Shown here: piece after piece, positions 4,741 to 50,703 of the stretch
Layout: each line of letters starts with the position of its first letter
How positions within the stretch are numbered: position 1 is the stretch's first letter
NCBI GenBank assembly: GCA_004335835.1
Contig: RWJK01001501.1
Coordinates: 47,159-111,158, forward strand
Direction: 5' to 3'
DNA length: 64,000 bases
Origin: Scenedesmus sp. ARA3
Lineage: Eukaryota; Chlorophyta; Chlorophyceae; Sphaeropleales; Scenedesmaceae
Translations under genes and position numbers: made by a program
Notes under the pieces: model-generated
Database searches by the model: none
Seen by the model: only the letters and a program-made list of their open reading frames with translations
What the model was told of the DNA's origin: nothing

Positions 4741-6786
4741 ATGAGTGGCATGATGTCGAGCAAGGCCATCGTAGCTCTGTGCCTATGTTTCATGCTCATG
4801 TGTGAATCGCATGCGGCAGAAGGAGATCTCGCTGCCGAGAGCAGCAGCAGCACTAGCAGCAGCAGCAGCACACACGAGCAGCATGGCGCACTTTCCCCGA
4901 GTGCAGAGAGCAGCGGCAGCAGCAGCAATCAAGAGGAGCCCTTTCTACCCAACTATGCATACGGCTGCAAAGGCCCAAGTGAGTGCCGGCAAGTCTCCAC
5001 TTTTCCGTGCAAGCATGGTGCAGCAATGATATCCGTTTTGCTGTTGACCAGTGTATGCGCTGAGTCTGGTTTGGTGTGAGCGTTAATGAGCCTCTGAAGA
5101 AGCTCACCATCAGCAGCAGTGTGTCATGCCATAACTGCATGTCCAAGTAACACTGGGCATCTTCTTGCTCACCAGTCAACCAAAGCCACACTGCAGGCCA
5201 ACGCGTCAAACAGCAACACACAGAGCTCTGTGTACTGCTGTTACTGCTGTGCACTGCTGTCACTGCTGTGTACTGCTGTCACTGCTGTGCACTGCTGTCA
5301 CTGCTGTGTACTGCTGTCACTGCTGTGNNNNNNNNNNNNNNNNNNNNNNNNNNNNNNNNNNNNNNNNNNNNNNNNNNNNNNNNNNNNNNNNNNNNNNNNN
5401 NNNNNNNNNNNNNNNNNNNNNNNNNNNNNNNCACTGCTGTCACTGCTGTGTACTGCTGTCACTGCTGTGTACTGCTGTCACTGCTGTGTACTGCTGTCAC
5501 TGCTGTCACTGCTGTCACTGCTGTCACTGCAGCCTTGCAGAGCTGGCCTCAGGGCCCGCCCCGGGTGCCGCCACTGTCACCCGGGCAGAATCCGAACTTC
5601 ATAATGATCCTGGTGGATGACATGGGCTATGACGACATCGGGTTACACCACCCCAGGGCGCCTGACGGCGTGCGCTCTGCTGGCGCCCAGACGCCAAATA
5701 TAGACAAGTAAGACAATATTATATGTTTAAACGAACCATCAGCGCATATAACTAAGCTAAGAATGCAGGCTCAGACTTCTGAGGGTTGGGTGGTTCTGAA
5801 ACAAAGCAACAGCAGCAGCAGCTGCTGCCTGAGCCCTTGTCAATGCAGGTGGGCGGGCGTCAACACACAGTGCACGCATGACGCCTGCACCTCTGCAGGG
5901 CTGCACAGCACCTGACTGCTGCCAACAGCACTCGACAGTGAGCTGCGCTGCATACCTACATTACCCTTACTGCACCAACGATATGTTTTTTTCTGATTAG
6001 TCCTCGGCTGTCTTTTTGGTGTATGCCCCATGGCCATCGTCGCTGCTTTATGCACACAAAGGCTGATCAAGGGCGGCATGAGCTTCCACCGACTTTTGCA
6101 CTGGTGCTGCTGTTCAGCACCATGCTAAAATGCTGGTCTCTGGTTCGATTCGACCCTGTGCATGCGTGTGCCACATGGCCGCCGTTGCTGTTGTGTACAC
6201 ACAGGCTGATCAAAAGCGGCATGAGCTTCACCAACTTCTACTCAGCGCCTCTGTGTGCCATGGGCCGGGCAGAGTTTCTCACTGGCCGGTCCTGGACTCG
6301 CACAGGCACGCTGTTTAACGGGTGAGTGGCGTGAACTGCAGCTGGCTGCAGCTGCTGCTGTGGTTGCATGCTATTAGATGAAGTCACGTGCTGTCAGCAC
6401 AGGCACAGTGTTCTACACGTGAGTAATGTGGACAGCAAGCGCAGTTTACAAGTTTGCTGCATCCTGGCGCTGTTGGCACAGGCATGCTGTGCAGGTTTCT
6501 GCACACATCACGCAGCAGCTGTGCCTCGGGCAGGTGCTGAAGTGCTACTGCAGCAGCGCTGCCAGCGCCGTGTGCCGCCAACATGCGACCGCCCATCTTC
6601 GAGTTACAATGCTGTACTGTATGGCACTTGTGTTGAAACTGTCTGTCAACGCCTGCAGGTTTGGCTACGATGCTTTCTCCCTGTCAGAGGCCACCATGGG
6701 CGATGTGATGCAGCAGGCCGGCTACATGACCGCACACTACGGCAAATGGTGAGTGACGGCAAATCAGGCGTCAGTGACAACAGCCA

Positions 6787-6818
<32 letters not shown>

Positions 6819-8899
6819 ATTGGAAAACAGCCAGCAAGCAATACACTGCTGTCCAGTCCCTCATGACAGCATACTACGGCAAGTGGTGAGGCACAACATT
6901 GCTCGCTGTCAGCAGGCTCGCCACACATGCCTAATGGAGCTGCAACAGCCAGCGCATACATACATGTGCAGCTGCAAAATTGCTGCTGCAGCCTGTTGTC
7001 GAGTTACAACTGGGTGCCAGCAGAGTCTTCCTAGTGCAACAAAGGCATCATTGTAAAATAAGAAGCCAAATTCTCAGCCAACTGCAACCACTGTCTTCTG
7101 CTGCTGCTGCTGCTGCCGTCAGGCACAATGGTGATGCGCTGGGCTACGAGCCGTGGTGGCGCGGCTTCAGCGAGGCGTGGCTGCCCTCCAAGTACATCCC
7201 GCTGGACAACCTGATGCGGTGCGGCACTGTGTCTCCTGCTTTTACTGTGCGTCATGCTTCAGAGTTAGAGTGTGTCTGCTGTGAGTGCTTTGTGTGGTGT
7301 GTGGTGTGGCTGCCCTCCAAGGTACATCCTCCTGGACAAGCTCATGCGGTGCGTGTGTTGGGTAAGTACGGAAAGGGGCGGGGCACAGGTGTAGCAGTGA
7401 CAGCTGTTGGTGCTTGTGTGGATGTGGGTGTGGGGCAAAGGGCGTGGCTGCCTCCAAGTACAGCCCGCTGGACAACCTGATGCGGTGTGTGACACTGTGT
7501 GAGTGTGGGGGGTGGTCGTGTGATGAGGAGGGGCGTGGCAGTGCACAGCTGTTACTGCTTGCGTGTGTGTGTCCGGCACGCACCAAGTTCATTACTTGCT
7601 GACACAACCTACGTGCCATGAAGTTTATTCGTGGCATCGCTGCACGTGATTTGCTGCATGCTTACGCACACATGCTGGCACAGGCACAACAAGGGCACAT
7701 GTGCGCAGACCAAGGGGCTCATGGAGCAGGTGCTGGCCAACAAGACAACCACTTACCCTTTGTTGTTTGCTTTTTGTTTGCACATGTTGTATTTACATGT
7801 TACATACGTGTGCAGGCACAACAAGGGCAGCTATGTGCAGACCAAGGGGATCATGGAGCAGGTGCTGGCCAACAAGATGACACCAGCTACTTGATGCCAT
7901 TCGCACGTGTTATGTTATCTTGTTACATATTTGTGCAGGCACAACAGGGGCACATATGTGCAGACCAAGGGCTTAATGGAGCAGGTGCTGGCCAACAAGA
8001 TGATGGGCTGGATGAAGGAGCGGGAGGAGGACGGCAAGCCCTTCATGATCTACTACGCACCCTACGCCATCCACCGCAAGTGAGCAGCATGTCGTGGGGA
8101 AACAAATCGATGCACCAGGGCTGAGATGTGCAGGCGGCAGCAGAAGCAGCATGCGGCTGGCGGTGACTTTTGAGTGATACCTGCTAAGGTGTCACTATGT
8201 CACTATGTGTCACTATGACAATCAGTGGAAATTACTCCTGGTGTCACCAGCCCTGGTGTCCAGGCTGCTGAAACCCATGACCTGCAGTGGTACAACGCAA
8301 CACGCGTCGTAACACATTGCTGGTTGTAATGCACCTGCATTGTGAACAGCACCAAGTACCTGCATTGGCCTCACAAATCTAGCCTGTGGGCGTCGCCTTT
8401 GACCCAACTAACATGTGGCTGTGCTGTGCCCGCAGTGTGAACCGCACCAAGGGCTTCAAGAATGACGTGGACAACATCTACTTCCAGCCCGAGCCATACC
8501 TGTCAAAGATCCTCGCGCAAGACCCCACCCCTGACCCACACAACGCACGGGTGAGAGCAGCACCAGGCCGGCCAGCCTGCTGCGTGCTGCTGGGTTCATG
8601 CAGCTGATGTGACTTGTTGGTGCAGCGATCTGGTGTAAGATGCTGCATCGCCGCCACTTGACAGATGTGAACATGCAGCAGTCGCGTGTTAGCTGCAGCC
8701 GCCGCCAAACAGAAGCAGCCCCTTGCTTGGAAGCATGTCAAACAGCTGTGCGTATGGCCGCTGCTGCTGCTGCTGCTGCTCGTGGTGCTGCTGCTGCCGC
8801 TGTTGCTGCTGCTGCTGCTGCCAGGTGTGGTCGTACCTGGCATACCTGGAAGAGGTGCTGGCGGCATAGTTGACTTCGTGTGTATGACCAAAGTGCTGC

Positions 8900-8933
<34 letters not shown>

Positions 8934-9306
8934 GCTGTTGCTGCTGTTGCTGCTGCTGCTGCTGCTGCCAGGTGTGGTCCTACCTGGCATACCTTGATGA
9001 GGTGCTGGGCGGCATCTTCGACTTCGTGGCAGCCAGCCCCAAGTGAGTAAACGACGCTGCAGCAGCACCAACAAACTGGCATTGAACTTGAACTTATACG
9101 CTCAAATAGCAACTTAACAGTAGCTGCGATGTCAGCAGGTTGCAGCTCCCAGGTATACGTTTTACATGCATGTCTTTATCAGAAGAAAACCATGTTCTTG
9201 ATGTTTGGTGTGTCTGCAGGCTTGCTGGCAACACCTACATCATGCTGACAGGAGACAACGGCCCGGGTCTGCCCCTGGTCAGCGACCCACTGGAGCGGCT
9301 GGTGAG

Positions 9307-9340
<34 letters not shown>

Positions 9341-12300
9341 GCGTTCACACTGTTTGGTCACAACCGAACTTGCACAAAAGTGCATCAAAGTGCATCAACC
9401 AAACACCAGAGAGCATACACTGCACCACCACAAGTCCCTACCACCTGCCCTTGGTCTGCACTTGGTGCTTGCTGCGCTCCATCTGCTGCCATCCACTTTG
9501 CATGCTGGCCGCCGTCAGGCATGATGCATGGTGATGCGCTGATCCTGCCGCTGCCGCCTGCTGCGCCTCCTCTGCTGCCCCTGCTCTCCTATTCTACTGC
9601 AGCGCCGGCTGCCTTCGGGCATGCAGGGAGACAAGACAGCTGCAGCGCTGGGCACCTTCCCCACTGCAGCCGGCAGCGAGGGCAGCCTGCGCAACCACCT
9701 GGCTGTGTGGGGCCCAGGCGTGCCCTCCGGAGCCACAGACGACACCCTTCTAACCCTAGCAGATGTGCTGCCAACAATGGCGGAGCTGGCCAATGCAACA
9801 AATACAAAGCACCGGAAGTGGTCGGGCCGCAGCTTTGCCAATTTGCTGGTGGAGGGAGGCAGGAAGAGGCGCAGCCAGGCAGCGAGGTTTCATTTTGTGC
9901 TGGGTGTGTCTGCTGACAAGGGGCAGTGCCCGCCCCTGATGGAGCTGATGCAGCGGCAGCTGCCTGACCTGGGGCCTGACAGGTGCGGCTTGACAGGCTG
10001 CAATTGTGTTTTGTGGTTATCTTTGATTCTGCGATAATGCACGTGGTTGGTGCAGCGGCAGGTGCCTGACCTGGGGCCTGACAGGTGCGGCTGCTGGAAT
10101 ACGCGGTGTTTTTGCAGTAGTTTTGTGGAGATGTGCATGTAATGTTGTGACGTGTGTGCGGCTGCACAGTACGACCGCTGGTATGTATGTTAGTGACGAC
10201 CTGCTGCTGCTGCTGCTGCTGCAGCTGCTGCTAGTGTCAGGGAGGTGCTTCAACATCTGCCAATGCACAGCGCAACCGTTGATACATATGTAAGTGACCT
10301 GCTGCCGCTGGTGCTGCTAGTGTCAGGGAGGTGCTGCAACGTCTGCCGCTACACAGCGCAACCATTGACATGTATGTGACCTGCTGCTGCTGCTGCTGCT
10401 GCTGTTCTGTTGCTGCTACGGCTGCTGCTGCTGCTTGCTTCAGGGAGGTGCTGCGGCCGCAGCCGCTGCTGTCGTACGATGTGTACAAGCGCTGCATCGT
10501 GGGCAGGTACCGCGACTTCAAGTGGTACGGCGTCAGCAACAAGGTGTACAGGCAAGTCGCTGTTGCGGTAGAAGTGCTTGGCCAGCTGCAAGTGGTACGG
10601 CGTCAGCAGCAAGGTGTGCAGGCAAGCCGTCTGCCGCGGACAGCGGACGTCTTGTCGCCATTGAACAGCAGCAAGGTGGAGACGAACCATACGGCCGCAA
10701 GCAGCAGCTCCAGCATCATTCAGCGCATGGTGCAGCCGTTGCATGCAGGTGTTATTAGTACACCAGTAGCAGTAGTCAGGCAGCAGTGCCCAATGTGCAT
10801 AACTCCACACCAGATCACAGCACTGCAATGAGGCACAAAAATTCATGCAGGCTGCATCCGACGCTGCAATGGCCGCCCTCCTGCCCCGCATCGCCCTTGC
10901 AAACTCCTGCTGCAGGATGAACGGCACCCACATCGAGAAGCCCTGCAACGAAGTGCGCAATCCTCACAAGAGCTCCATTGCAGCGCGTTTTGATGCAGAG
11001 GCAGCAGCATGGTGGCAGTCTGTAGTAGCAGAGCCAGATAGCTTCACTAAGCCTGTTTATCAGCTGGGACTGCAGGGTGAAGAGGCCAGTAATGTGGAGG
11101 CAGAGGGAGCTGTGCAGATCACCCGGGGAAGTGTCACCGTCAGCAGCAGGGCCAACTACACACGCGTTGGGGACAACGTGTGCATGAAGGCAACGGTGAG
11201 TGCGGGGGCTGCATGCAAAGGCAATGTCGTGTTATGCTGGCTGTGCATGGAACGTGCTGCTTGATTCAGATTTTGTGTTTGCCAGCGCATTAAGCCATGT
11301 GGAGTGCGGATGATGGGTGGCAACAGCAGCAGGTTGTCCTTGCAAAGCATCCCTAGGTATTGCATTCGATACCCGCTGCTGTTGACTACCAAGTAGCAGC
11401 TATGAACCAAACTTTTCTGGCTTTGTGTTGCGCAACATGTTGCTTGTTATGCAGCTGCACACACCCGGCCACTACACCGTCACCGCAATGTACATCGCCA
11501 GTGCACTGGCCAGTGGCAGCGGCCGCTACCGGGCTGAGTTCAGGCTGCTGGTGGGCAAGGCTTCTGAGGTGGCGGCTGGCTCCGCAGCCAGCATCACCTC
11601 AGTGCTAGGGCCGTCAGCGCAGAGGTCGGGCAGCCCGGTGAGTGGGATCTAACTAAATCGAAGCATCTAATTCATTTCTTGCAGTCATCACAGGTGCCAG
11701 GCAGAACTACCGGCTCCTGTTGCGAGCAGCATTGGCAGAAAAAGCGGCCGCCGATGAGCCATGGTTTATTGGGCGCGTGTTGGACCAAACGTGATGACAC
11801 ATGTGTGCTGTTGGTTGTGCAGTGACCTCACATTGCTGCTGCTGCTGCCGCCGCCGCTGCAGGCGTCCAGTGGCAGCATCATAGGCCTTGTGGACCTGAG
11901 CAGGTACAAGCGGGGCCAGGAGCTGGATGTCTGCTTCCAGCTGCTGCGCATCAGAGACATGAAGCAGCAGCAACAGCAGCAGCAGGCAGACAACAACCTT
12001 GGACTGCTCACTGAGAGTTCCTTGGGTGCCAGCAGCAGTGCAGCTACTGCCGCGTCACAGCAGCTACCAACGACTAGCGTTCCAGCAGCATCTGACTACC
12101 CTATGCCGACGGTTTCACGGCCAACAGAGCGAGCTGACGCATCCAGTGAGCAGGTAGTAATCGATGAGGCGGATGACGCTCAAGGCGCTGATGACTCAGC
12201 AGCTACGCCAGGTGGCATCCCGCCTTGGCATTTCATCCTCGACAACCTGCGCTTCGTGCTTGTTACAAACAGCACGCGTGCAGCTACTGCTGCTGCGCTG

Positions 12301-12987: not shown

Positions 12988-13333
12988 TTGGCTCTCTGGA
13001 AGCCTCGTCCGGCGGCAGGTGCCGCGGCTTGTGCAGCACATGCGTGCACCCCCGCCAGAAATGGGGTTTGCAACATCAACCCCTCATTACCCGGTGCTTC
13101 TCATTGCGGCCATCAGCTCATGGTAGCGCCTGGAAGCCTCCTCTGCTGGCAGGTGCCGCAGCCTGTGCAGCAACCCTTGCCTAAACTATGGCTTATGACA
13201 TCAACCTCTCACAAGCTGGTGCTCCTGCTGGCAGCCATCACCTCGTGGTAGCGCCTGGAGGCCTCGTCCGGCGGCAGGTACCGCAGCCTGTGCAGCAACC
13301 CTTGCCTAAACTATGGCTTATGACATCAACCTC
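12988..13333 (-). repeat. 125-bp tandem array of the oxygenase last-exon end, stop codon and 3' sequence
   Basis: Read on the minus strand, the final segment of the oxygenase (HLPPEEASRRYHELMAAS followed by stop) is repeated downstream three times. The recurring TGGTAGCGCC lies at 13121, 13246 and 13371, an exact 125-base period, and a fourth decayed unit starts near 12990. Two downstream units keep an open frame to their own stop, for example YLPPDEASRRYHEVMAAS. The spacer (stop plus GAGAGGTTGATGTCATAAGC) is nearly identical between units, so the expansion looks recent. Confidence 0.9.
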
Positions 13334-16300
13334 TCACAAGCCGCCGCTCCTGCTGGCAGCCATCAGCTCATGGTAGCGCCTGGACGCCTCCTCTGGCGGC
13401 AGGTGCTGCAGCTTGTGCAGCACGCCCTGCCGGGTGAGGTCACCAACCACAGCAGGCGGGAACAGCGGCGACGCCGGCAGCTGCGGGGCTACTGGGGCGG
13501 CGCCAAGCCCTTGCTGCTGCTGCTGCTCTGAGGACTGGTAGCATGTAGGCAGCACCTGCAGGGCAGGCGCAGTGCAGTTCGCAGCAGGCTGATTAGAGTG
13601 ATGTAGCCTTGAGCGCATGTATTGACCATGGTCACCTACTTTGGATGGTCGGCAACCCAGAGCACTTACATACACAAAGCGTATTGCTTAAATTGTGGTA
13701 GTATGCAGCCAACCAGCTTGAAGCATGCAAGCGATGGCAGTGCGCGCAGCAGCACCAGCACAGGCATCTTCTTGCCTCTGAGCTGCCGCATCTGCTCACA
13801 CCACCTACAGTTTGTGCTTTTGAGGTCAAGCACAGTTGGCTGGCAGATATCTGGTACTGCCCTCAGCAGCCCACCTCTATGATGGCGTCATAATTGGGCT
13901 TGTGGAAGAACGCCATCGACAGCCGCCTGCTGCTGCGCGCCTTGGCTGGCAGCGGGTTGGTCACGCGGTGCAGCGTGGCCTTCCATAGGCCGTTGGTCCA
14001 GCGTGACATCAGGCTGCCTAGGTTGAGCAGCAGCGCACCTGCAGCAGCACACAACACACAGCTGTATGGACTCAGTCCAAACAGGCAAAAAGTTTGTGAA
14101 TAATGAGTGGAATGCAGCGCAGCACATCGTGAAGAGCCCAGCATGAGGCAACCCACGCACACAGTTCCTGCAAACGTTTGTGCCCATGCAGCACATGCTC
14201 AACGGTTGCTGTGCGAGACGCACTGCTTGACAACCTTTCGCTGCAGGTCAAACACTGCTCTTGTTGCCACCTCTCTCACACTCGCCGTACACTGTACTCG
14301 GCGCACAGCTGTGCAAGTCATCAAACAACACCACGCCACACTGCACCATCACAGCCCTCACCCACCTGGCGGCACTTCCACCTCCAGCCACTGCCGCTAT
14401 CCGCCTGGACTGGCTACAAACACTACTTCCATATCCCAGTCATGTCATAACCACCAAAACATACCACGGCCCACCACAGCCCACCACAGCCCACCACAGT
14501 ACGATACATACAATCTCTCACCCACCTGACGGCACCTCCACCTCCAGCCACTGCCCTGCAGCACACAGCACAGCACAGCACAGCACAGCACAGCGCGCCA
14601 CACCACACCACACCCACCTGGCGGCACCTCCACCTCCAGCCACTGGCCTGCAGCGCTCAGCAGCTGCAGCCCCACCACATCACACATCACCTCAGTTCCA
14701 TGAACCCAGGATCACACGTTTGTTCCAAAACCAAATCACCCACCTGGCGCCACCTGCACCTCCAGCCACTGCCCCGAAGCACTCAGCAGCTGCAGCCCAC
14801 CGTTGCCAGCCCGCCAGCCGCTGCCAGGCAGGTAGTCCTGGCTGGCCAGCAGCGTGAGGCTGCCCGAGTCGATGTGTGCCTTCTTGCGCAGGTCATGTGG
14901 GCCTGGCGGCAGCAGCTGCGAGGGGTAGTTGGCCACCTGGCAGGTGACACACAGCCAGTATGGGCAAAATGACGAGTAAATAGATGGCGGAAGCAGATGT
15001 ACAGCCACAGCAGGCAGGCAGCCAGCCAGGCAGGCGCAACAGCTACAATTGAACATAGAAAGAGAAAACACAGGTTGATCCTGGCTGGCCAGCAGAGTGA
15101 GGCTGCCCGAGTCGATGTGGGCCTTCTTGCGCAGGTCATGTGGGCCAGGCGGCAGCAGCTGCGAGGGGTAGTTGGCAACCTGATGCATGCAGCGCAACAA
15201 AGGTAGAGGGAAGTGCGAGGAAAGAAGCAAGCAGTCGGTCGGAACATCAGTTGGACAGTCAGGGCAAGCAGGCAGAATAAGCAAGCTGTGTGACCCTGGG
15301 AACAGCCGGCTGAAGTATAAGGAGCTGTGCAAATGTGATCCTGGCTGGCCAGCAGCGTGAGGTTGCCTGATTCGATGTGAGCCTTCTTGCGCAGGTCATG
15401 TGGGCCAGGCTGCAGCAGCTGCGAGGGGTAGTTGGCCACCTGGCAGGTGGTGGGCGCGGGGCAGCGAGGGTGGGGAGGAGGGTCAGGGATGGCGGGAAGC
15501 AGGTCGAGGCACAGCAGCCAGGCAAATAGGGCAACATGTCAATAGTTGTGAAACAGCAGACACATAAGTCAAACGTGCCGGATTTGAATGCGCAGCACAA
15601 TCGCGCACGCCAGCGAACACTTGGTGATGTGCACACAGCAGTCCTCACGCCCCTCGCACTCCACGACAGATGTGAACAAAGAATAGCAACGCAGCAGCAC
15701 ATGCTTGCTGGCTGGGCTGTTGCTGGGCTGGACCTGCGGAGTGCTACACATAACTGTTGATTGACACAGCAGTCGCACAACTAGTGCCATTCCCCACCAA
15801 CCTGCAGGTTGCTGTGGTGCCGGCAGATCTTGTCATCAAAAAAGTGCTGCTGCAGCCCCAGGCTGGCAGCAGCCAGGCGTAGCACCGCGCCCGCGATGAT
15901 TTCGCACTGACTGTAGCATGCCTGCATTGCTGGCTGCAGCTCGGGTGTGCTGCTGCTTGGGAAGACGTCAGGAGTGAAGAAGACCTGCAGGCAGATGTAA
16001 CACATTACATGTCATTGAATCTGTCGGTGTTTGAAAACAACAGTCAAGCTGTCTTGCACGGCGTGCCAAGCACAGCTACGGTGCTAGCACTCCCAAGCAA
16101 AGCAGCGACCCCCAAGGCAAGAAAGAGCATTGATCTTCCTGCAGAGCTGCGTCAATGTCTTACAGGTACAGGACAGGTTGTCAGCACGCCACTGCCTTGG
16201 CCGCCAGCTTGCACAGTGAGCATTGTCCTGCAGCTTCTCCTGCTTGTGCAATTGCTGTGGCTTCTTTGGGCTTCTTTACCCTGCTTCAAGCCCGCCTGAC

Positions 16301-16533
16301 CCGGCTCTGACGAGTAATAAGGCATATGCACAGCAACTCATTGATATTCAATGCCCTTGCGTGTGATGTAACAGCCCTTGCGCTGCCCTGCTTCAACCTC
16401 ACCTGGCCCAGCTCTGAGCAGTAGTAGGGCTGCTGCAGCTGCTGCTGCGTCAGCGGAGGCCCACACATGAAGCGCTCCGACAGGATGCCTGCAAGCGCCG
16501 ACGGCTCCCTGCTGCTGCCACACAGTGCAGCCA

Positions 16534-16569
<36 letters not shown>

Positions 16570-17452
16570 ATGCCTGCAGCATAGCACATGCTGGAGTTGG
16601 TGAGGCATTTTGTATGAGACAGATGAGAGCACAGCTGTGAACCCAAATGCAGCTGGTGCTTGCAGTGTCGGCTGACAGCTGGCTGCTGCTGTGGTATTGC
16701 AGCATGTGCTCGCGTCATGTACATACGTGCTTCTGACAGCTCGATGCTGCCGAAGCCTGCCATACCAGCTGAGGTGAGATTTAGGTTCTGCAGGGTGCTG
16801 AAGCATGTACTGCCTGTACTGCTGCAGCAGCACATGCTCGTACTGCTTGTACTGCTGCAGTCCCACCTGCATGTACTGCTTGTGCTCAGGGCTGATCTCG
16901 TAGCCCCTGCCACGCCGCATGTCCTGCGGCAGCGACGCATAGCAGATATCTTGAGACGAAGCAATAGTGCAGCTTGCTGAGGACAAGAGATGATGCGTGG
17001 TGATTTGCGGAGATGTGACAAGCAGACACAGCCTGCATGTGACCACGGTGCACTTGACTCCCGCATCTCCATGTGTCATTTCATGTCACACCTTTAAAAA
17101 GCTGGCACTGGGAGCAATGAACAAGACCCCAGCACCTCACACACAGCATGCCTGCCGCAGTTTCGCAAGTCTGCTCAACCACGCAGCCCCCCACCCGCAC
17201 CTGCACCACCAGCTGCATCTTCTCATCCAGCGGCAAGTCAAAGAAACTCTCAGCAGCAGCAAACAGCTGCAGCAGCAGCTCCTGCTGCAGGCCGTGGCCC
17301 TCCAAAGCAAGGAAGCCTGTGGCAAGGCACTCCTGCCTCACTGCTGCTGCCTGCTGCTGCGTGGGAGGCTGGCCAGCCAGCAGGTTGCTGATGTCTATGA
17401 GAGGAGGCTGGAAGGTTGCGAATGATGGGCTGTCATCTAACCGGGTGTAGAC

Positions 17453-17492
<40 letters not shown>

Positions 17493-18640: not shown

Positions 18641-18676
<36 letters not shown>

Positions 18677-19296
18677 AGATCAAGGCTGCTAACAAGGCGT
18701 TTCTAAGGCACATTGCCAACGTGAACAAAGCAGAGGACCTCATGCTGCAAGCTGGCTGGCGGCCCAAGGTGCATACCAGTTTTGACTGCAGTTGCTGTCC
18801 CCCTGAGAACAGAGCAGCAGGTCACGCGCCCACTGCGGCAGTCTAGACAGTGCACAGAAAAGCGCAAGATTGCTACGCAGCCAACACTGCCACGGCAGCA
18901 GCAGCAGCAGCAGCAGAGCGACGTGCCATGCGCCTTGCAGCGCAAGCGCAAGGACGATGAGGGGCTCAATGGCACGCACCTGCCTGCTAATTTTTGTGAC
19001 TGACGGTGACCAACTGTCCCTAACTGCATGTTGCCTTGCGCTTGCGCAGCAAGGCAAGGATGACGAGGAGCATAAGTGCAAGCCTCTGACCATTACTGCA
19101 AACCACCTATTGGTGTTAAGCAACTGTTGCCAACTGTGTGCCGCTGTATCATGCGCAGCGCAAGCGCAAGGACGATGCGGAGCGCAAGAGCAAGCATGCT
19201 GAGGAGCGTGAGCGCATCAAGCTGGCACTGGAGGACGACAGGCTGCAGCGGCAGGTGGCGCAGGAGCTCACAGCAGCACGCCCACATGATACATAG
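18044..19296 (+). CDS. PUB-domain protein (possible p97/Cdc48 adaptor)
   Basis: The exons 18044-18343, 18679-18768 and 19159-19296 give 175 aa with closed phases. After a Ser/Ala/Gln-rich N terminus, residues about 58-130 match a PUB domain: a helical LESDVLDYLHYG segment, then MHTIFNNIVLHPDEPKYRK, and across the intron IKAANKAFLRHIANVNKAED and AGWRPK. PUB domains bind the C-terminal tail of the AAA ATPase p97/Cdc48. Exon 3 encodes a charged helix (RKRKDDAERKSKHAEERERI, LEDDRLQR) that looks like the linker found before UBX domains, but a TAG stops it and no UBX domain follows. The gene may be a truncated PUB-UBX protein, or splicing may continue downstream. The start is the first ATG of the frame. 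Exon 3 is echoed on both sides. Confidence 0.75.
18925..19090 (+). repeat. Two echoes of PUB-gene exon 3 (acceptor plus 5' part)
   Basis: Blocks from about 18931 and 19033 repeat the acceptor and start of exon 3 (QRKRKDD... and QGKDDEEHK...). Real exon 3 starts at 19159. Both precede the real exon. Confidence 0.8.
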
Positions 19297-20329: not shown

Positions 20330-20434
20330 GTTTGAAAGCCGGCTGCGCCATTTACCCTCACATCTTGGCATAGTTGTAGGACTTCTGTACAGCTGCAGGC
20401 TGAACGGTGTCATCGCTGTAGACAAGTATCCCTG
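20330..20434 (+). promoter_or_regulatory. Conserved upstream block of peptidase gene, plus copy
   Basis: The 100 or so bases before the ATG match the sequence upstream of the minus-strand paralogue (60576-60690), including ACTTCTGTACAGCTGCAGGC versus GCTTCTGTACAGCTGCAG in the same position. Conservation outside coding sequence suggests a core promoter or leader. Confidence 0.6.
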
Positions 20435-23400: not shown

Positions 23401-23772
23401 AGCGGGAGATGCGGTGTATGCACCGCCTGATGACCCTGCAAGTGCTGTTTCAGTGATGCACGCCGTCTTCTGCTACGGCTGGTGGGACAATGCAACAAAT
23501 ACTGCGGATGGCTATTGGCTGTGCAAGAACAGGTGCGGAGGCAGCCTTGTGTTTTGCTTTTGGGCAGATTTGCTGCTGGGCTGGGCATGTGTGTATGTGC
23601 GTATGTTGCGTGCATGCGGGAGGCGTGCTGTCTGTGGTGATTCATCAGCGCAGCGGAGACGCAGCAGCAACTCAACAGCTGCTGCTGGGCGCCCGCTGAA
23701 GCCATGTTGCTGCTGCTGTTGCTGCTGCTGTTGCTGCTGCTGCTGCTCTGCTTCTTCTGCTGCTGCTGCTGC

Positions 23773-23805
<33 letters not shown>

Positions 23806-26800: not shown

Positions 26801-29800
26801 GTGCAAAGTACAGATGTGGTGCTGAAAGGGGTGCAACCGGCTCAGCTTACACAGCAATTGCCAGGCCTGAGACATCTGGCCAGAGCTGGCTGCCACAAGG
26901 ATCTGCGCCAGCATGACATCGAAAGCCGTTGGGTCGTTGTGCTGCTGTCATGCTGCAGCAGACCGTCGTAATTTACAGCCAAGCAAGCAGCAGACAGCAG
27001 CACAGTGAACATGACGGGCCAAATCTGCAATTGACTGAGCACTGCTTGCCTTCTTGCCGCAGGCCGATCGGGGGTTGTTGCGCTCAAGTCCAACATCAAT
27101 CTGTGCATCGCTGCACCTGTGCTGGACAACCAAACGCGAGTAAGTGGTGATCAGGAGGAGGGCATTGCTGTTTACAGTAATCGCAACCCTCCTCCCAGTA
27201 GCTTGAGGTGGCACACATGCGCTTGCCTGGCCTGCAGGGGTCTCAAGGCTATTTGAGTATGTGCCTGCCAAACCTGCGCAAACAGGTATATCCGTGGGAC
27301 CAACCCATGCTGGGATGGTTCACAGAACAGGCATGGATTGATCACTGCTGCAGCACCCGTGCTAGCATTGGTGTTAAGCAAGGTGCGAGACTGGCATCTC
27401 GCTGTGTGGACCTTGGACGGCAGCAGCAGCCGCACTGGCAGCTGCTGCAGCAGCATATCATCAATGCAAATGCACAGTTTCACTTTCAATCAAGAACCTT
27501 GCTGCACAACGTGCTGCTGCTCCGTGTTGCAGGTTAAGCTGCAGCTTTGCAGCAGCAGCAACACCCGCTTTGTATACGAATCAGATGGCAGTGTGCAATT
27601 GCAAGGTGAGATTGCACAGTTAGATGCTTTATGCAACTGGCAAGGGCACAATTTGTGCTTGTTTGCAGCTCCAATCCTTTCAGGTATTAGTGTTGGCGTA
27701 TGCCGCGTGATCACTCATGAGTACACCAGTGTAACCCCTCTACTACGTGCTTGTTGCCAGCGCGTGTAGGATCATGTGATGTGCTGTGACGGTAGCGCTG
27801 TTGATCAGGCAGTGAATAAGGTACCTTTATTGACCGCAACAGAGGGTGGCGTACCTGCGGTGACATGCGTTGGCAGCGCATTCAGAGGAAAGTGCATGCA
27901 CTACTCAAGCCGACCGCCTTGCTGTTATTGTTGATACAGTTTGTCACCAACTTGCTGTGGGTCTGTCTCGTGATGTGTGCTGCTTCTGCCATGCAGGGTC
28001 CAACTGGTGCCTTGAAGTTGTTGCCTATGCAGCCCGCGATGGCGCTCAAGTTGTGGTGAGAGCTGTGCTTGCCCTTCGAATTGCAGTGGGTCCGCTGGCA
28101 GTGCGCCTGAGCATGCTGTGGCTTATACATTCGGGATGTATCCGCTTCCTTCTTTCTTCTTGACATTCCTTTACCGACTTGCAGACATGTCCAGATACAA
28201 GCAAGTAATGAAAGAGCGTAGTTGATTTGATTCAAAAACCATGTGTTGCTGCAGCACTTGATTTGGCGGCGTCCGTTCAGCTGTACATCCTGGCAGATTT
28301 GAAGTACATCCCAGCGTTGTTTGCAGTGTTGTGCTGTGTAACACACGCTGGCCCAGCATCTCATCTCAACACACAGCCGTTTCCCTTCTAGGACGTGCCT
28401 CATATGCATGCACTGCAGCTGCAGCAACTTTAACAACGCAGCTGCTGTAGATGGCTGGAAGCCAGCAGCAATGCATTCTGCGTGGCTATGCCTCGGGCGT
28501 AAACCTACTAGCACACCTGAGAGAACTCCTGCTGCACATGGACACCCTGCTGATGCATGCATGGCATGTTGGCTGCTGCTTTGCTCCTGATTGCGCAGAT
28601 TAAGCGGTGCACGGTCGCGGCACTGATCAACCAGCGCTGGTGGAAGGATGCCGACGGTGCGCTGCGGCCATTACATGCCCTCGACTACTGCCTTGGCGCG
28701 CCTGAGGACAATGCCAGCCTGGGAACAGCACTACAGGTGAAAAGTGGCACAAGGCAGCTCAACAGCTGTATGACTGAGCAGCTGTGCAGAACCAGTCCTG
28801 GCACAATTCGCATGCTTTCAGATGCAGCTGCTAGCCATGCGTGTTATGCCAGGACATCTGCTGTGTCGCCTTGTCTGAATCGTTGCCCAAACCGCGCTAA
28901 TAATGCGTTGCGTGAGATGCATCTTGGTCACCATCATTGGTGGACAGTTTGTGCACATGTGCTGCGCATAACGTGGATCCTAACACTGCAAACACAAGGC
29001 TTACAGGGTGACATAGTCGCATCCCTCTCACGTGGGCGCGCCTTAATGTGTGATTAATGCAACTTTGTTGTTTCTCCAACATCTGGCATTGTCGTCTGGT
29101 TCCTCGCTTTGAGTGGCCACCAGCTGGGTACTGACTTGTAGTGCTTGTCTGCCGCCTGCTGCCCGTCTGCCAGCTGTGGAAGTGCAACCAAAGCAAGAAC
29201 CAACTGTTTGCGGCTGACTGGATGCCATCTGTGCCTGGTAAGTCGATAGAATTTCGGTTGAACTGCACCAGTTTGTTGTGATGCACTGGTGCAATGCACA
29301 ATTTGCAGGTTACACGTTGCACAGTCTAGACTGGTGAGCTTGACGGGTGAAGCTGTACACCACATGTGGGGCTGGTGACAACAGACCTGTGCTTTGCCTT
29401 ATTATACGTGACAATGCACAGGCATATGCCTGACGAGATGCATTTGCGCTCAGGCTAGAGTCAAGACACTCAGGATGCACACCACTGCTTTGCCGCTGCA
29501 GCCTTGCATACTCCTTCTCTATTATCGCATGCCACCTGGCGTTTTCGTGTATTGTGTCAGCTGTGATGTACCTATTACCTCCTCTGGCATGTCTCACACT
29601 CTGCTGCACTTGACCTGCCATGCGCGCAGCTTTTGTATACCTCGGCTGCTTCCGCAGCGAAGCCAGCGCTCCAGTACTGCCTGATCTGCTGTCAGAGGCG
29701 CTGACTGCCAGCAACACAACAGAGCAGTGCTGGAAGCTTGCAGCCGGCTCACTGGCTTCGAAGTATACACTGCGAGCAAAGGATCAGGTGCATCCACTGT

Positions 29801-31082
29801 TTGGTGTGAGCGGCCGCAAGTGCTTCGGCGGCTGGAGCCTTGCCAAGGCCACATCGCTGGGGCCGGCCCCAGAGTCCTCATGTGCTGCCAACCAACCAGA
29901 CGTAAGCGGCATGATGGTCCCAACAAATCACACCACGCGTATGTCCTGCAGTAATAGGTAGTAGAGTGACTTGCCTTGACGATGCTGACCTGCAGCTGCG
30001 TGTATGCCGCATAGCGGCTGTCACATGATAGTGCTGGCGCACCCGAGTCACGTAAAAGTGCAGTTGCTGCGTACAGTTTCGGCCGCTGCGGCTGCCGGCG
30101 GCATCCCCTGGCATTGCTTGTCTGCTCAACCGTTGGCCGGTCCGTGCTTCCTCAATTGCAAGTCACGGCTGCTGCTCGCACACATGTGTTGGGTGTACAC
30201 CCAGCAGGGGGGCTCTGCAGGCCAGCCTCTGCACTACAGCGCAACAGGCCCGTGACGCTATTGCCGCTGTTGCTGCAGGTGGTTGCTGTGTACCAGGTGG
30301 TGCCGCCAGGTGCCCCTATTCCCAGAGGCTGTGTGCTGGAACCTCTCAGCGTGTTCAGCCGCGGTCAGCCCGACAAAGTAACCGTGTCTTTGTGTTGCTG
30401 CTGCTCTCTGTATCACTATTACATCGGATGATGCAAACACACTTGAGCTTTGCATGCAAAGAGAATGAGGAGGGTATGCTGCACGAGCACAGCAGCGGCA
30501 ACATAATATGCGAGAACAACAATGCAGCTGCCGCGGCCATGAGTTGCACTTGAGCCAGTGCATGGTGCACTGCATGCCTTGATGCAAGCTCAAAAACACA
30601 CAGAAGATGCATGTGCATGCATGCACACAATCCATGCATTAGAGGATGCATCTCTGGCAGAGCCATGAGCAGCCAGCTGCACCATGTTGTTGAGTGCATT
30701 CAACCTGTGGCACCCGCAGGAATACTTCGGCGGCACGCTTCCTGGAGGTTACGAAACAGCCCGCGCATTCGGACTTATTACAGAATCCAAGTACTATGTT
30801 GTGGCACGTACCAACAATATTGGTGAGCTGCGCATGTCGCTCCGGCTGGGCTGCCTCCGTCTGTCCAGAAACGCTGCAGCATGCATTGTGTGCTCAGCAG
30901 TGGTGGTGTGAGAATGTGTTGCCTTAGTAGGTGCTGAGGGTAGTTCTGTTAGTACACCATACTGGATGCGTGTGCTGTGCACACCTCCCAGCCCTGGAGA
31001 CCTTGATTGCCACTTGTCTGCATGTGGCTGCTTCTTGCAGTGCCCTTGCAAGTGCATTCAGCTGCCGGGCCAAGCATGTTTT

Positions 31083-31128
<46 letters not shown>

Positions 31129-31326
31129 TGTTGGCCAGGGTATGGCTATGGCTTCACCTATGGTGCAATATCTACCACTGCCCCGCTGCTGAACATCACA
31201 ATTAACGGCTCACTGGGCTGTTACGAGCCATGCTTAGATGACGCCTCCAAAGCGTGTGGCAGCGGGGATGGCTGGGGCGGCGCAACACAACCACGTGTGT
31301 GGGTTGTGTACGAGTTTCCCAACTAA
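20435..31326 (+). CDS. Secreted papain-like peptidase with ricin-B and WSC-like modules, plus-strand copy
   Basis: Exons supported by phase and by the paralogue are 20435-20462, 20805-20867, 21237-21270, 21549-21825, 22177-22304, 22557-22726, 23259-23532, 23861-24237, 24555-24749, 24920-24981, 25299-25368, 26008-26148, 26490-26553, 27063-27139, 27533-27605, 27997-28055, 28599-28736, 29174-29237, 29630-29901, 30279-30377, 30720-30822 and 31139-31326. Exon 5 (near 21878-21938) and exon 13 (near 25650-25790) are unresolved. A two-exon signal peptide joins to MDSIKSFVIGLSLLIVAVV. The peptidase C1 core has DQGRCSSC, MHAVFCYGWW and KNSWGPSWG (the Asn-Ser junction spans an intron). Further on come CCP-like Cys, beta-trefoil units (RWLKDAAGMLRPLHAL, QRWWKDADGALRPLHALDYC) and a WSC-like domain (YLGCFRSEASAP). 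Probable extracellular protease binding glycans. It may be weakened by exon 5/13 changes. Confidence 0.8.
21015..21195 (+). repeat. Short duplication in peptidase intron 2
   Basis: A block of about 35 bases (GAGATGCAATATGCCCACCA) at 21018 recurs at 21157 with two or three changes. It is intronic and has no match to a neighbouring exon. Confidence 0.6.
23703..23835 (+). repeat. CTG/TTG-rich tract before peptidase exon 9
   Basis: About 130 bases of imperfect CTG repeats lie 25 bases upstream of the acceptor at 23860. They form the long pyrimidine-rich region of that 3' splice site. The long Leu/Cys open frames here are artefacts of the repeat. Confidence 0.85.
31083..31127 (+). repeat. (CTG)n before last peptidase exon
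   Basis: About fourteen CTG units lie a few bases before the acceptor of exon 24 (31139). Confidence 0.85.
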
Positions 31327-33983: not shown

Positions 33984-34023
<40 letters not shown>

Positions 34024-34749
34024 AGGCAGCGCGCTGCTGTTCCTGGCTGACGGCAACGGGGACTTCACCAAGGCCATGGACCTGGAGCTGGACGGGCGCG
34101 GCTTCGGGCTGGGGGCACGCAGCCAGCGCTACGCGGCCGTCATTGAGGACGGCGTGGTGAGTTTGAAGCGTGCATGCATGCGTTTAAGACACTTTCTGTT
34201 GATGGCAGATGGCGTGATGGTGCAGCCGCAGCTAGCGCTACGCTGCAGTCATTGAGGACGGCGGGATGAGCTCCTTGTATTACTCACAACAGCTTGCTTT
34301 GCACGCGTCAATAACACATTGCCGGTGGTTGAGGCAGCTGAAGTTGCGGTGCCGTGGCATGTGTCTTGTTGCTGGGCTGGTGCCGCGTTCATACAGCAGC
34401 AGGCATTGCAGCAGTGTCTGTTCGTTTACGGCGTTGCGTGCGGCTACAGCAAGCGCTGGCACAGCAGCAGGTGGCTGGCGGCACGAAGCTCGCCACGGTG
34501 AGCTGCTTATAAGAAGCTAATTAGCTTCTGGTGCAGCAGCAGCAGCAGCAGCAGTAGGAGAATCCATGTGTCACCTGTGGGAGGTTACAACCAACACAGA
34601 CGACTGTAGGGAATGCAGTTCTACATTGATATCACCTGCTGCTAACACTGCTGCTGCTGCTGCTGCTGCTGCAGATCACCAAGCTGGAGGTTGAGGGCGG
34701 GGGTGGCCTGACTTGCAGCGCAGCGGACAACATCCTCAAGCTGCTGTGA
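33055..34749 (+). CDS. Type II peroxiredoxin (5 exons)
   Basis: The exons 33055-33156, 33289-33332, 33639-33766, 34026-34156 and 34675-34749 make exactly 480 nt (159 aa), the usual length of cytosolic PrxII. There is no N-terminal extension, so a cytosolic location is likely. The thioredoxin-fold protein carries the peroxidatic Cys48 in PGAFTPTCS and the resolving Cys73 in IACVSVNDPFVMDAW. The 25-residue spacing is that of atypical 2-Cys PrxII enzymes, which reduce H2O2 and alkyl hydroperoxides with glutaredoxin or thioredoxin as donor. RSQRYAAVIEDGVI and LEVEGGG are further family landmarks. Introns 3-5 end in CTG tracts. The exon 4 end is echoed in intron 4. No stress-response element was recognised upstream. 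Confidence 0.95.
34228..34270 (+). repeat. Echo of peroxiredoxin exon 4 (3' part plus donor)
   Basis: GCGCTACGCTGCAGTCATTG with following AGGACGGCGGGATGAG repeats the end of exon 4 (34128-34160, GCGCTACGCGGCCGTCATTG, then donor GTGAGT) about 75 bases downstream. The donor GT is mutated to AT. Confidence 0.85.
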
Positions 34750-39600: not shown

Positions 39601-41486
39601 ACAAGCCGCACTGCCGCCGCCTCACCTGCCGCTGCTCCTGCAGCCACCAGCATGCGCTGCCGCCGCTTGCTGAGGTGCTTTGGCGCAAACACTGCTGCTG
39701 TGTTGGCCCCAAGCTCCACACTGGGCGCCTCGGGGCCCAAGCTGGCGCCACTGCCAAGCGTTATAACACTGGCCAGCGCGCGACGAAACACCTGCAGGCA
39801 TAAACACATATGGCAGAGCAGCGCGGCGCAGAGACAAAGGCAAATTCGGCAACTGCTTAACAACAAAACATCTCAGCAGCAGGAGCAGTGCGCGGCAAAG
39901 CAGTATCAAAGCTGCTGGCTGTGCGGCTGCTGTTGCTGCAAAAAAGGATGGCCATGTGCGCACCTGCCAGTATGAGGTTGGCAGTGCCGCGTTCTTTGTG
40001 TCGTCAACCACTCCCTCGATGGCCCGTGTAAGGAACTTGAGAGCCGGGCTGAAGCCCCAGCCCTGGAGATAAGCCACTATGAAGCCAGCGCCAATGGGCA
40101 TCACACACCTGCAGGCGCAGCAAAGGGAGAGAGAGAGAGTGTGGGAACAGGCACAGCACCTGGCAGAAACTTCATGCTTCACACACCTGCAAAAGCGAGA
40201 AAGCAATGTAGCCATCAAAGATCGCGTGACCATGCTGCGTAGGTGCACTGCGATGGCGACCATTACCAGCATATGCATGCACACTTCAGGGGTGTGCCAG
40301 CACACAGACCAACTGCTGCGCCACACAGGTATCAGCAGCTGCATGTTCTTGCGCACCTGAAGGGAATGGCCGTGTCTCCGATCACCAGGCCAGTGGCTCG
40401 GCCACCACCCACGTGCAGCTGCACAGCAGCACAGCAGCGCAGTGCGGCGAACGTCAGGCCATTGCAGGTCAGCTTCATACAAACGCCTGCCAAGACCCCA
40501 ACGGCAAAGCTAGCAACAGGCTGGCAGCAGCTGTGTTGCAGGACCCCTGCCACTACCCTGTTGGCCGAGTGTTGCGCAAGCATACACCGCAGTACATGTA
40601 TTTGTGCAGCTTCCCTGCTGACCATTGGGCCGCAGCTGTCACCCGCACTGCTGGACGCGGCGCTGCGGCCATCTGCACGGCGTGTGTCGTCTCGCCATAG
40701 CTCTGCTGTTTCAGCCTCTGCTGCCGCCACAAGCTGCAGCTTTGTGCTCTGCTGCTGTTACGAACTGCATCTTCCCTGCTAGCTTACTTGGCTTCCCAGC
40801 GCAGCTGCCCCTCAAGCAGTTTCCTGTCTCTGCTGCAGTTCTCTGCTGCTCTTACTGGTAACAACTGCGTCTTCCCTTGCAGCTGCTTGTCAGCGCACAC
40901 GCTGCGCCTCAAGCCCCTGCACAGACTGCCCACCTGCGCGAAGATGTCTGGCAGGTCGTGCACGTACTGGATGGACACGTCAAAGATGAACACGCTCGTG
41001 GCCACCAGCCCACCCATGCCCACAGCATACGCCAGCGTCAACAGGTCGTCCCTGCAGGGACAGCAGTACATTGGTACGCAGCAGCAGCAGCAATTGCAGG
41101 TGGTGTCGGCCCAAGCGAGCATCCAGCACGCTTGCAAGGATACTCCCTTCTGAACCGCTGACGTCATGTCCACATCACCCCTCCCACCACTGCTGCAAGC
41201 TGCCGCACACTTCTGCCAGCTGCCAGCACACTCGATCAGCCATGCCAAATTTCACGCCACCACTCCCACCTGTTCTTCCACCAGCTGGTGAAGGGATCTT
41301 CGTCCTCAGCCCATGTTCCTAGCGTGAAGTTCACACGCCGCACATCGGGAGCTGGGCCCGACCTGCCTGAATAGTTCAAGTCAGTGAGGCCCTCAGGTGT
41401 ATCCAGCTCATCTACTGCACACAAGTCATCTGCAGAATCTGAAGGGCTGAGTGCTGCATCCTCGCACGCAAGCACTGCAGCACCTG

Positions 41487-41579
<93 letters not shown>

Positions 41580-42834: not shown

Positions 42835-44657
42835 ATGGCTCTTCACATGCAGCGCTCTGCGATCGCCCCTGCCAGGACGCAGCGTCCTCGGTCAGTTGCT
42901 GTGAGGTATGTAGCAGTATTAAGCACGAATTGTCATGCAGCTGGGTGCAATGAGCCGACCAGACGGTGTCAAGAGCATGTTGGCTGCTGTGCTCACTTGC
43001 ATGAATTTCATGCAGGGCTCAGGCTGTCGAGCAGAATGGGCCATGGAAGAAGGTATGTGTTGTTCGTTTAACGCAAACTATGGTGCAATTGCCGCCCTGG
43101 CAGCTGATTTGCTGCTTGTAGTGCCCATGTGGCTCCTGCCGCCAGCACACCACGCACAGCACACCACACATTGTGCGCATCTGCCAACCTGAGCAAAGCC
43201 GGCATTGGGGCTCCTTAGTTTTTGGCCATTCAACTTAAATTAAGTTGTCAAATGCTCAGGGCACATTGCTGCTGCTGGTACTGTCGCTCACAGCTCTCCT
43301 GCTGGGCCAGGCTGGCTGCTGCTAGCACACTGCACATCCCTGCAGCGTCTGTGCTCTTACTCACTCTGCGCAACAAGCACGACTATATAACAAACATCCT
43401 CAATATCACCCTGCTGCCACTGCTATTAACCCTTTTCTTCTGCCACCTGTGTCACGTCACTGTGTACCCCTGCAGGCTGCCTCAGTGCTGCTGGCTAGTG
43501 GCCTGGCCCTGAGCGTTGCCGTGCAGGGCGCGGCAGCAGCACCCATCAGGCTGGAGGCCAAGCGCGTTGAGCAGGAGGAGATGCTGCAGCAGCAGCTGAG
43601 CAAGATCGAGTACCTCATCCAGCAGCAGGACAACGCGCGCAAGGCGGAGCTGCAGGGCAGGTGCGCGTGAGGGATTGGAGGGGATTGGACAACCGCACGC
43701 AGAACACAGCAACCTTTTAACAGTGTGTGTGCTCGTGTGCCAGTATAGTTGTGGCACATTGCGGCAGCTGCGTCACTTACACAGGTACACTGTCCGATGC
43801 TGTGGGTACACCATGTGCTATCTCTGTCCTTATGGAACAGTGTGCCAGCAGAGAATGACTTCCAAGTGCCCGGCATCTCCCGGCTGTGGACAATGGTCCC
43901 GTCAGTGTTTTGGCAGCAAGGGTGCACCAAGCTTGACGCCTGCTGTCTCACTCTTGCTTGCCGCCGCTGCTGCTGCTGCTTCTGCAGCCGCCAGGCCCTT
44001 GAGAGCCAGGTGAACCAGGCTGAGGTGGCCATCCAGCGCAAGCTGGTGGAGGAGGCAGCCAACCAGAAGGCGGCAGCAGCCAAGGGGGTGAGCTGCTGTT
44101 GTCCTCGTTGCACAAACCAGCAGGCAGCACACTTCCTGGCAAATGCTTCATTACAGCTGCATCACTTCTGGTCACACTGCATGTGATTCTGTGATTGTCA
44201 CTCGAAGGCCTGAACAGGGCAGCTCACACACAGCACACACTTGCTTTGCAGTCCTCCTGGCAGGAGTTGGGCTGCAGCCACGCTCCGGTTGGACCGCTCG
44301 TACTGTGTACCCCGCCTGCTCGCCTCGCCACCATGGTCCTTGATGCCGTTGCTGCCTCATGCTGTGGTTCCTAGATGCCGCTATCTCATGCTGCTCCCGT
44401 GCGTTGCTGTTATGCTCCGTTGTCATCGGCCGCAGGAGGCTGAGCGTGCCGCGCGCATTGCTGCTGAGGCGCAGCAGATCAAGGCTCAGGAGGTGGCCCT
44501 CAAGGCAGCAGCAGCCAAGGCTGAGGGCCAGCTGCAGCGCGCTGAGCTTGTTGAGAAGGCCAAGGAGGCAGGCGAGCAGCAGCAGGTGGCCAAGGCCGCG
44601 GGCTCCTTCATGGACCTGCTGGGCCTGACTGAGGCTGACCTGGGCCTCAGCAAGTGA
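42835..44657 (+). CDS. Predicted thylakoid-lumen coiled-coil protein (5 exons)
   Basis: The exons 42835-42905, 43016-43052, 43476-43660, 43988-44087 and 44436-44657 close to 615 nt (204 aa). Residues 1-36 form an Arg/Ala-rich chloroplast transit peptide with an Arg-Ala-Gln-Ala site. They are followed by a Lys-Lys and a hydrophobic stretch (AASVLLASGLALSVAVQGAA), a bipartite lumen-targeting layout with KK in place of twin Arg. The mature part is almost entirely a Gln/Glu/Lys/Ala-rich coiled coil (for example RVEQEEMLQQQLSKIEYLIQ) and ends in the conserved-looking GSFMDLLGLTEADLGLSK. I do not recognise the family. Exon 2 is a 37-base mini-exon needed to keep frame. The C-terminal exon has at least two, probably four, downstream copies. 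Confidence 0.85.
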
Positions 44658-44819
44658 GGCGGCATTTCTGCTGCTCCGCCGTCTGTTCCACAGCTCTTTC
44701 GCTACAGCACTTTTGCAGCGTTTGAAGGGTGACTGCTGCTCGCTGATGGTTGGTTGTGAGAGTCACAGCTTGAAAAGTTGCCCAGATGGCTGGTTGTCTG
44801 CCAACAACAGCGCTTGCTT

Positions 44820-44900
44820 TGAGCAGCAGCAGGTGGCAGGGTCCTTTAAAGAGCTGCTGGGCCTCATTGAGGCTGACCTGGGCCTCAGCAAGTGAAGTGG
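44820..44900 (+). repeat. Echo of the lumen-protein C-terminal exon, still open to a stop
   Basis: EQQQVAGSFKELLGLIEADL then GLSK and stop repeats the real ending (EQQQVAKAAGSFMDLLGLTE...) about 250 bases downstream, with a short in-frame deletion. The reading frame is intact through the stop at 44893-44895. Confidence 0.9.
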
Positions 44901-45002
44901 CGTGCTCGAGTTCTGAGTTTCTTTCCTTGTTCTTGACTCATGCCTGCTGTCTGGCACGCATGACTGCGTGTGAGAGGACAGGCTTGGGAAGGGGCAGGTG
45001 GC

Positions 45003-45155
45003 AAATGGGCCTCAGCAATTGGGGCGGCTGGCATCGTCTTCTGGCTTTCGTTTTTCTCCTTATCTTCTACAGCTTCAGAGGGTTGTGGTTTTTGATATTG
45101 AGTAATAGCTGGCTGACTGAGGCTGACCTGGAAGTCAGCAAGTGAGGCGGCTTTG
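45003..45155 (+). repeat. Two more decayed echoes of the same C-terminal exon
   Basis: GGGCCTCAGCAATTGGGGCG at about 45007 and LTEADLEVSK plus stop at 45110-45145 (followed by GGCGGCTTT as after the real stop) repeat the last codons and 3' sequence. A fourth, very weak copy may lie at 45272-45320 (CAGGAGCAAGAGCTGGC). Confidence 0.75.

Positions 45156-50547: not shown

Positions 50548-50639
<92 letters not shown>

Positions 50640-50655: not shown

Positions 50656-50703
<48 letters not shown>

Follow-up and report, generated by a model that had tools for sequence, protein, structure and literature searches.

Truncated exon-edge copies in introns of Scenedesmus sp. ARA3: short tandem duplications that may be kept alike by exchange with the intact exon

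Why do the introns of a green alga carry truncated copies of the exon edges beside them, and how can such a copy resemble its exon while the intron sequence around it has diverged? We addressed this question in a 64,000-bp stretch of Scenedesmus sp. ARA3 (assembly GCA_004335835.1, contig RWJK01001501.1, positions 47,159 to 111,158; hereafter the window), which is part of the contig labelled C1119 in an assembly of 87.3 Mb and 1567 contigs. The window is intron-rich, with a guanine-plus-cytosine content of about 55% and the splice consensus CAG/GTGAG at donors and TGCAG/G at acceptors (slash, splice junction). A first-pass annotation had reported junction-spanning remnants, here called echoes, in its sulfatase, oxygenase, PUB, peroxiredoxin, CLC and lumen-protein genes, and we found that the echoes are real and located in these six genes, CLC contributing one weak case. 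Our best reading, to which we give a probability of about 0.6, is that short tandem duplications of exon edges were followed by concerted evolution in which the exon serves as template. The geometry of the copies shows their origin by duplication across an exon edge, while exchange between exon and echo is supported indirectly in one gene family and we infer it elsewhere.

The sample comprised 295,222 bases, that is, the window and 26 further pieces (L009-L027, L028-L031 and L032-L034). L009 adjoins the window, L010-L027 were placed by hand on contigs, L028-L031 were chosen for sulfatase matches and L032-L034 lie on randomly drawn contigs; with its hand-chosen pieces the sample is not strictly random. 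Simple repeats were masked before self-BLAST, echoes were accepted at E <= 1e-3, and genes were modelled with a splice-aware hidden Markov model (HMM) self-trained on the sample, all exons and exon edges being predicted by it. A row was dropped if the partner copy was exonic or if the copy contained both exon edges, and of 126 echo rows 31 were dropped and 95 kept (19 in the window, 3 in L028-L031, 15 in L032-L034, all of them in L032 and L033, and 58 in the rest). Pfam confirmed the sulfatase, 2OG-Fe(II) oxygenase, PUB, redoxin, CLC and papain identities in the window, sequence matches in PDB also backed the oxygenase, redoxin and CLC, and the Pfam search with the lumen-protein gene gave no match. 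No allelic copy of window positions 6900-9100 was present among the 40 candidates, out of 851 in the assembly, that were scored.

How are the copies arranged? Local self-matches were mostly direct (51 direct vs 5 inverted in the window, 264 vs 35 in the whole sample). The first-pass annotation had described a polarity without exception, copies with an acceptor and exon start lying upstream of the intact exon and copies with an exon end and donor downstream. This held for all 19 kept window rows (13 donor-side, all downstream; 6 acceptor-side, all upstream) and for 91 of the 95 rows of the sample, the four exceptions lying in L011, L031 and L033 (twice). Two window rows dropped for an exonic partner (10516/10586 and the repeat in PUB, 19472/19565) would also count against it. 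On inspection, the labels of the L031 row look swapped, and the row in L011 includes 8 exon bases. Among 29 dropped one-edge rows, 14 fit the polarity and 15 do not; 11 of 17 dropped pairs were listed in both directions, and therefore the dropped rows cannot test the rule. Because one breakpoint within the exon leaves a truncated copy beyond the shared splice site, the geometry of tandem duplication itself produces the polarity, which separates tandem duplication from dispersed insertion and is no separate discovery. Local, direct, in-place duplication with one exon breakpoint, as proposed at first pass, is borne out by this polarity and by the more than 30 intron bases aligned with the exon part in 32 of 95 rows. 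For 53 of the 95 rows, echo and exon are offset by 100-150 bp, a second cluster lies at 200-300 bp, and some arrays carry intron sequence in both copies.

Across the sample, 76 of the 1102 internal exon edges predicted (about 7%) and 28 of 55 multi-exon genes had at least one echo. Echo load differed among genes (chi2 107 on 54 degrees of freedom): 15 of 33 genes with at least 8 introns had none, and about 0.5 junction pair per intron or more was found in L025, L033, L015, L024, the oxygenase gene and L020. Mean intron length was not correlated with echo load (rho -0.12, p 0.43, 49 genes). Local direct repeats cover 6.5% of the window and 0 to 40% of the other pieces, and in this respect the window is not exceptional. 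In the L024 gene, which we take to be tyrosyl-tRNA-synthetase-like, exon-edge echoes are read as duplicated peptides by the gene finder, and such genes may be mis-annotated.

Are exon edges duplicated more often than other parts of genes? Pairs were collapsed to families and the same pairs re-placed within their own genes 1000 times. Among 124 families (121 within genes, 3 outside), 69 joined an exon edge to an intron, vs 24.1 +/- 4.3 expected, a number reached in 0 of 1000 re-placements, and 16 were intron-only, vs 41.3 +/- 4.9 expected, which is a relative excess of about 7-fold (69/16 vs 24.1/41.3); the uncollapsed count agrees (94 vs 35.7). Simulated conservation of the exon partner gave a detection advantage of only 1.3-1.5-fold, so exon conservation alone does not explain the edge excess. 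Echoes thus exceed what duplication anywhere in introns would give and few lie on the wrong side, in line with what the first-pass annotation had anticipated. False exon calls were considered as a source of the excess and rejected, because 90 of 95 kept rows involve an exon 90 bp or longer and echo-bearing exons have a higher coding log-odds (median 22.3 nats vs 9.9 for all exons).

Does duplication followed by decay account for the present state of the copies? The match stops within 12 bp of intron in 46 of 95 rows (the short class), yet their exon parts match about as closely as those of the 32 rows with more than 30 aligned intron bases. In rows of at least 86% identity it ends no more than 12 bp from the splice site in 35 of 48 (31 of 43 when each edge is counted once), and below 80% identity most rows (19 of 24) have long intron matches. 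We simulated decay with an echo and two intron parts that mutate neutrally and an exon that accepts almost only third-position changes, under four indel settings and with selection against some duplications left out of the model; the share ending within 12 bp was 2, 18, 25 and 6% (2% at an indel ratio of 0.15, 6-25% at extreme ratios). The pure-decay null is therefore rejected for the high-identity class. In many echoes the exon part is too similar for the state of the intron part, so the simple duplication and decay favoured at first pass are not enough. At 245 third positions occupied by A or T in the exon, the echo shows G or C in 80, which suggests that the exon itself has often changed there.

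Can exchange be traced between related genes? Exon D of the window's sulfatase gene (7939..8079, plus strand; gene model, Pfam) was located in seven sulfatase copies, and sulfatase matches occur on further contigs too. Two acceptor echoes precede it in the window (7681..7880, plus strand, exon starts at 7684 and 7816), and such echoes recur in the paralogues: a scan found them upstream of exon D in 5 of 7 genes (window -123, -255; C712 -154, -267; C674 -118; C1550 -112, -245, -377; C1517 -125; C775 none), with 0 to 3 echoes per paralogue, and the count becomes 6 of 7 with C703, where an echo at about -101, missed in the scan, was found by self-match at a locus cut off within the exon. For 8 of the 9 echoes compared, the nearest sequence came from the same gene. 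Between C674, C1517 and C1550 the spacers show homology (z 4.0 to 12.0, the highest for C674 vs C1517), and on the alignment, judged by eye, they follow the echo from nearly the same base. In C674 and C1517 the sequence preceding the echo bears no relation to the spacer (z -0.5 and -0.6). With homologous spacers and about the same joint, we conclude that the duplication predates C674, C1517 and C1550.

At the sites that distinguish the C674 exon from the C1517 exon, both echoes nevertheless carry the base of their own exon (7/7 each). In a tree built on 57 bp of exon D and the echoes, 10 of 13 inner branches stayed open, and for this reason site counts were used: across seven echoes of five genes set against the exons of six genes, the own exon was matched in 301 comparisons, the other gene's exon in 40 and neither in 53, these comparisons not being independent and the C712 outer echo, the C1550 outermost echo and C703 being left out. 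Two echoes of C1550 were less clean (e.g. 9 own, 2 other and 2 neither vs C674), and the C712 outer echo (62%) and the C703 echo (72%) are more diverged, which would be consistent with decay. In this one family the copies appear to have common ancestry between loci and yet are more alike within a locus. Over nearly its whole length the C775 intron aligned with the part of the C674 intron that precedes the echo (score 68, shuffled maximum 53); it showed no alignment with the C674 spacer (score 15, shuffled maximum 35); the C674 echo and flank match the C775 exon and flank at 85%. In its sequence, C775 looks like the product of recombination between echo and exon, with the spacer deleted. Echoes of sulfatase exon E were not clearly shared between C674 and C775. 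A second paralogue family was sought, and the genes in L025 and L020, presumably dehydrogenase-like and glycosidase-like, are without a close paralogue. The basis for exchange is thus this family together with the failure of the decay null, and its direction would be from exon to echo.

Other explanations were weighed against the same data. That reverse-transcribed or dispersed exon fragments were inserted would suit the echoes that end almost exactly at the splice site, and is extremely improbable given the polarity, the same orientation, the clustered offsets and the intron bases within copies and arrays. Introners and retro-insertions are dispersed and lie on a random side, and the copies studied are local and polar, dispersed copies not having been counted genome-wide. 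A role as alternative mini-exons, or as decoy splice sites under selection, is in keeping with conservation that ends near the splice consensus, with some echoes called exons by the HMM, and with 11 short-class acceptor echoes whose tract score (median 1.40) is close to that of real acceptors (1.44) and far from intronic CAG (-1.31, p 0.0009). The mismatch rate by codon position also shows a third-position excess (all rows 0.078, 0.072, 0.179; 46 short-class rows 0.070, 0.076, 0.173; 32 long-intron rows 0.062, 0.054, 0.174). The frame, however, is broken by 45 of 49 gaps, the paralogous echoes track their own exon, the inner ends of the 46 short-class echoes carry no second splice site above random (p 0.64 for 35 of donor type, p 0.30 for 11 of acceptor type), and 15 candidate lengths spread over the mod 3 classes (4, 5, 6), by which the functional mini-exon is not supported; retention of the splice dinucleotide in 84 of 95 rows is biased by row selection. 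The complete exon, both splice sites and open frame of a duplicated alternative exon are not found in these truncated echoes, nor was the new functional donor and acceptor of a gained intron found in the 46 short-class echoes tested. A functional role is therefore very unlikely, and from their sequence the echoes look non-coding.

Random tandem duplication anywhere in genes, followed by decay only, would let edge copies seem commoner because their exon partner is conserved, and it accommodates the polarity, the arrays that contain intron, the frame-breaking gaps and the simulated detection advantage. It falls short of the 7-fold relative excess, of the match ends in high-identity rows and of paralogues that share a spacer while their echoes resemble their own exon, and we consider it unlikely. 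Recurrent, independent and recent duplication of the same edges at hot spots in each gene would fit the recurrence of exon D echoes, the clustering of offsets and the uneven echo load; a recent event, however, predicts a flank before the echo that resembles the spacer, which is not so in C674 and C1517, whose spacers are homologous between the genes, and this account is quite unlikely. Several observations weigh against our own reading of duplication followed by exon-templated exchange. By anchored gapped extension, intron homology exceeds the 95% level of the null in 51 of 95 rows (donors 28/60, acceptors 23/35), as decay alone would have it, and the rows outside these 51 show none above the null; the echo set is mixed and part of it agrees with simple decay. 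The rate of differences at third positions is 2.39 times that at first and second positions (confidence interval 1.99-2.93), at the edge of the range for neutral echoes, which leaves room for weak constraint on some of them. The paralogue test draws on three genes of one family and 48 aligned bases, the C674 joint is blurred and the identity of the joints is a call by eye. Moreover, for the spacers in the window and in C712, homology to those of C674, C1517 and C1550 is not clear (z -1.2 to 2.7), which would suit hot spots, and we claim no shared origin or age for the echoes of these two genes.

How might exon-templated exchange work? As the geometry shows, a tandem duplication with one breakpoint in the exon and the other in the adjoining intron left a truncated exon edge with its splice site within the intron; splicing presumably stays at the site of the intact exon, and the intron would lengthen. 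The shared 40-60 bp might then recombine repeatedly, whether by gene conversion, by unequal exchange or through slippage of the template, so as to rewrite the echo from the exon, as the sulfatase family suggests indirectly and as may hold elsewhere. Selection would remove transfers of a damaged echo into the exon, leaving the exon as the surviving template, and the intron parts of the unit would meanwhile diverge.

In concerted evolution of tandem repeats, and in conversion between gene and pseudogene, copies within a locus are more alike than their counterparts in related loci. Likewise, the echo resembles its own exon more than its related-locus counterparts; the difference is that here the template is a coding exon edge and the recipient intron sequence. 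In the potato RdRp gene, one tandem duplication of an intron-exon boundary created a new intron via a cryptic donor (PMC4974935). As there, the unit joins the 3' end of an intron to the 5' start of an exon and brings splice signals with it; here, by contrast, there are many events, a second splice site is no commoner than at random in the echoes tested, and some echoes stayed matched to the exon after their intron parts diverged. Intron gain by AGGT tandem duplication or internal gene duplication, in which, according to a review (PMC3443670), duplicated exonic segments become new introns, shares with the echoes local duplication in genes as a source of intron change, whereas the truncated edges here appear to extend existing introns. 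Dscam, too, has tandem copies the size of an exon, spaced at 100-200 bp within a single gene; there the copies are alternatively spliced and no gene conversion was found between them (PMC3236188), whereas here they are truncated, apparently unused and seemingly homogenised. Among the titles and abstract openings of a partial literature search, none reports intronic exon-edge copies kept alike by conversion.

Within the window, the 19 kept echoes lie at 15 exon edges, fewer at this threshold than the more than 25 copies counted at first pass, and their density over 5533..45155 is about one per 2 kb and not one per 1.5 kb. On the plus strand, the sulfatase gene further carries an acceptor echo of exon 6205-6321 (6021..6095; partner 6166-6237, 81%), a donor echo of exon 6659-6748 (6862..6890; partner 6725-6753, 90%, 5 intron bases matching), two donor echoes of exon 7123-7218 (7303..7353, 88%; 7441..7500, 90%, with a gap inside the exon part), an acceptor echo of exon 8972-9042 (8822..8880, 88%, a (CTG)n tract preceding both copies), a donor echo of exon 9603-9982 (10048..10092, 96%, 8 intron bases matching) and a doubtful donor echo (10319..10377) whose 20-bp exon is only predicted (10225-10244). 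This last pair (10233/10319) and the CLC pair (40744/40838) are the 2 weak cases among the 19. In the oxygenase gene, on the minus strand, a tandem array with offsets of 125-134 bp (12996..13431) overlaps predicted exon 13338-13555, three donor echoes lie downstream of exon 14744-14936 (14357-14395, 14517-14563 and 14613-14672) with acceptor echoes upstream of it (15071-15182 and 15339-15449), and a donor echo belongs to exon 16403-16573 (16279..16323, 80%); without the echoes at 15071..15449 the protein aligns with solved dioxygenases. The remaining echoes are an acceptor echo of PUB-gene exon 19159-19254 (18937..18978, plus strand, 86%), a donor echo of peroxiredoxin exon 34026-34156 (34227..34270, plus strand, 89%), the weak acceptor echo beside CLC exon 40643-40751 (40838..40914, minus strand, 70%, 8 exon bases) and two donor echoes of lumen-protein exon 44436-44653 (44821-44901 and 45108-45154, plus strand).

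Long (CTG)n/(CAG)n tracts are numerous in the window (e.g. 8760-8821, 8894-8968, 23708-23837, 41488-41578 and 50548-50714); two of them directly precede the acceptors at 8822 and 8969, the acceptor consensus itself is CTG-like, and it is possible that such tracts promote local duplication. Other repeats include an intronic minisatellite (5228-5530, with a run of N at 5328-5431) and a coding tandem repeat with a 120-bp offset in a predicted alanine-rich protein (1933-2298). Two diverged blocks form an inverted pair (20357-31319 and 49646-60662, aligned parts about 69-84% identical) and contain papain-like and WSC/ricin-B-lectin-like genes; the genes predicted at 49639-64000 yielded no junction echo. 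A 112-bp inverted repeat (55771-55882/61437-61548), 98% identical and partly palindromic, is more similar than the paralogues around it.

What would exchange between exons and their echoes mean for the genome? The common view is that introns drift freely from exons. A bolder proposal, which we hold tentatively and at somewhat less than even odds, is that exon-anchored concerted evolution operates genome-wide, with exons as immortal templates that rewrite the copies of their edges, and that these edges, not transposons or random duplication, are a main engine of intron growth and turnover. If exon edges are copied into introns at the frequency seen here and then kept alike by exchange with the exon, the conservation of exons would be linked to intron length and splice-site context, false mini-exons will be called by gene finders, a single genome would allow short-range recombination to be read from repeats spaced about 120 bp, and the echoes would form a stock of spare splice sites for alternative splicing or new introns.

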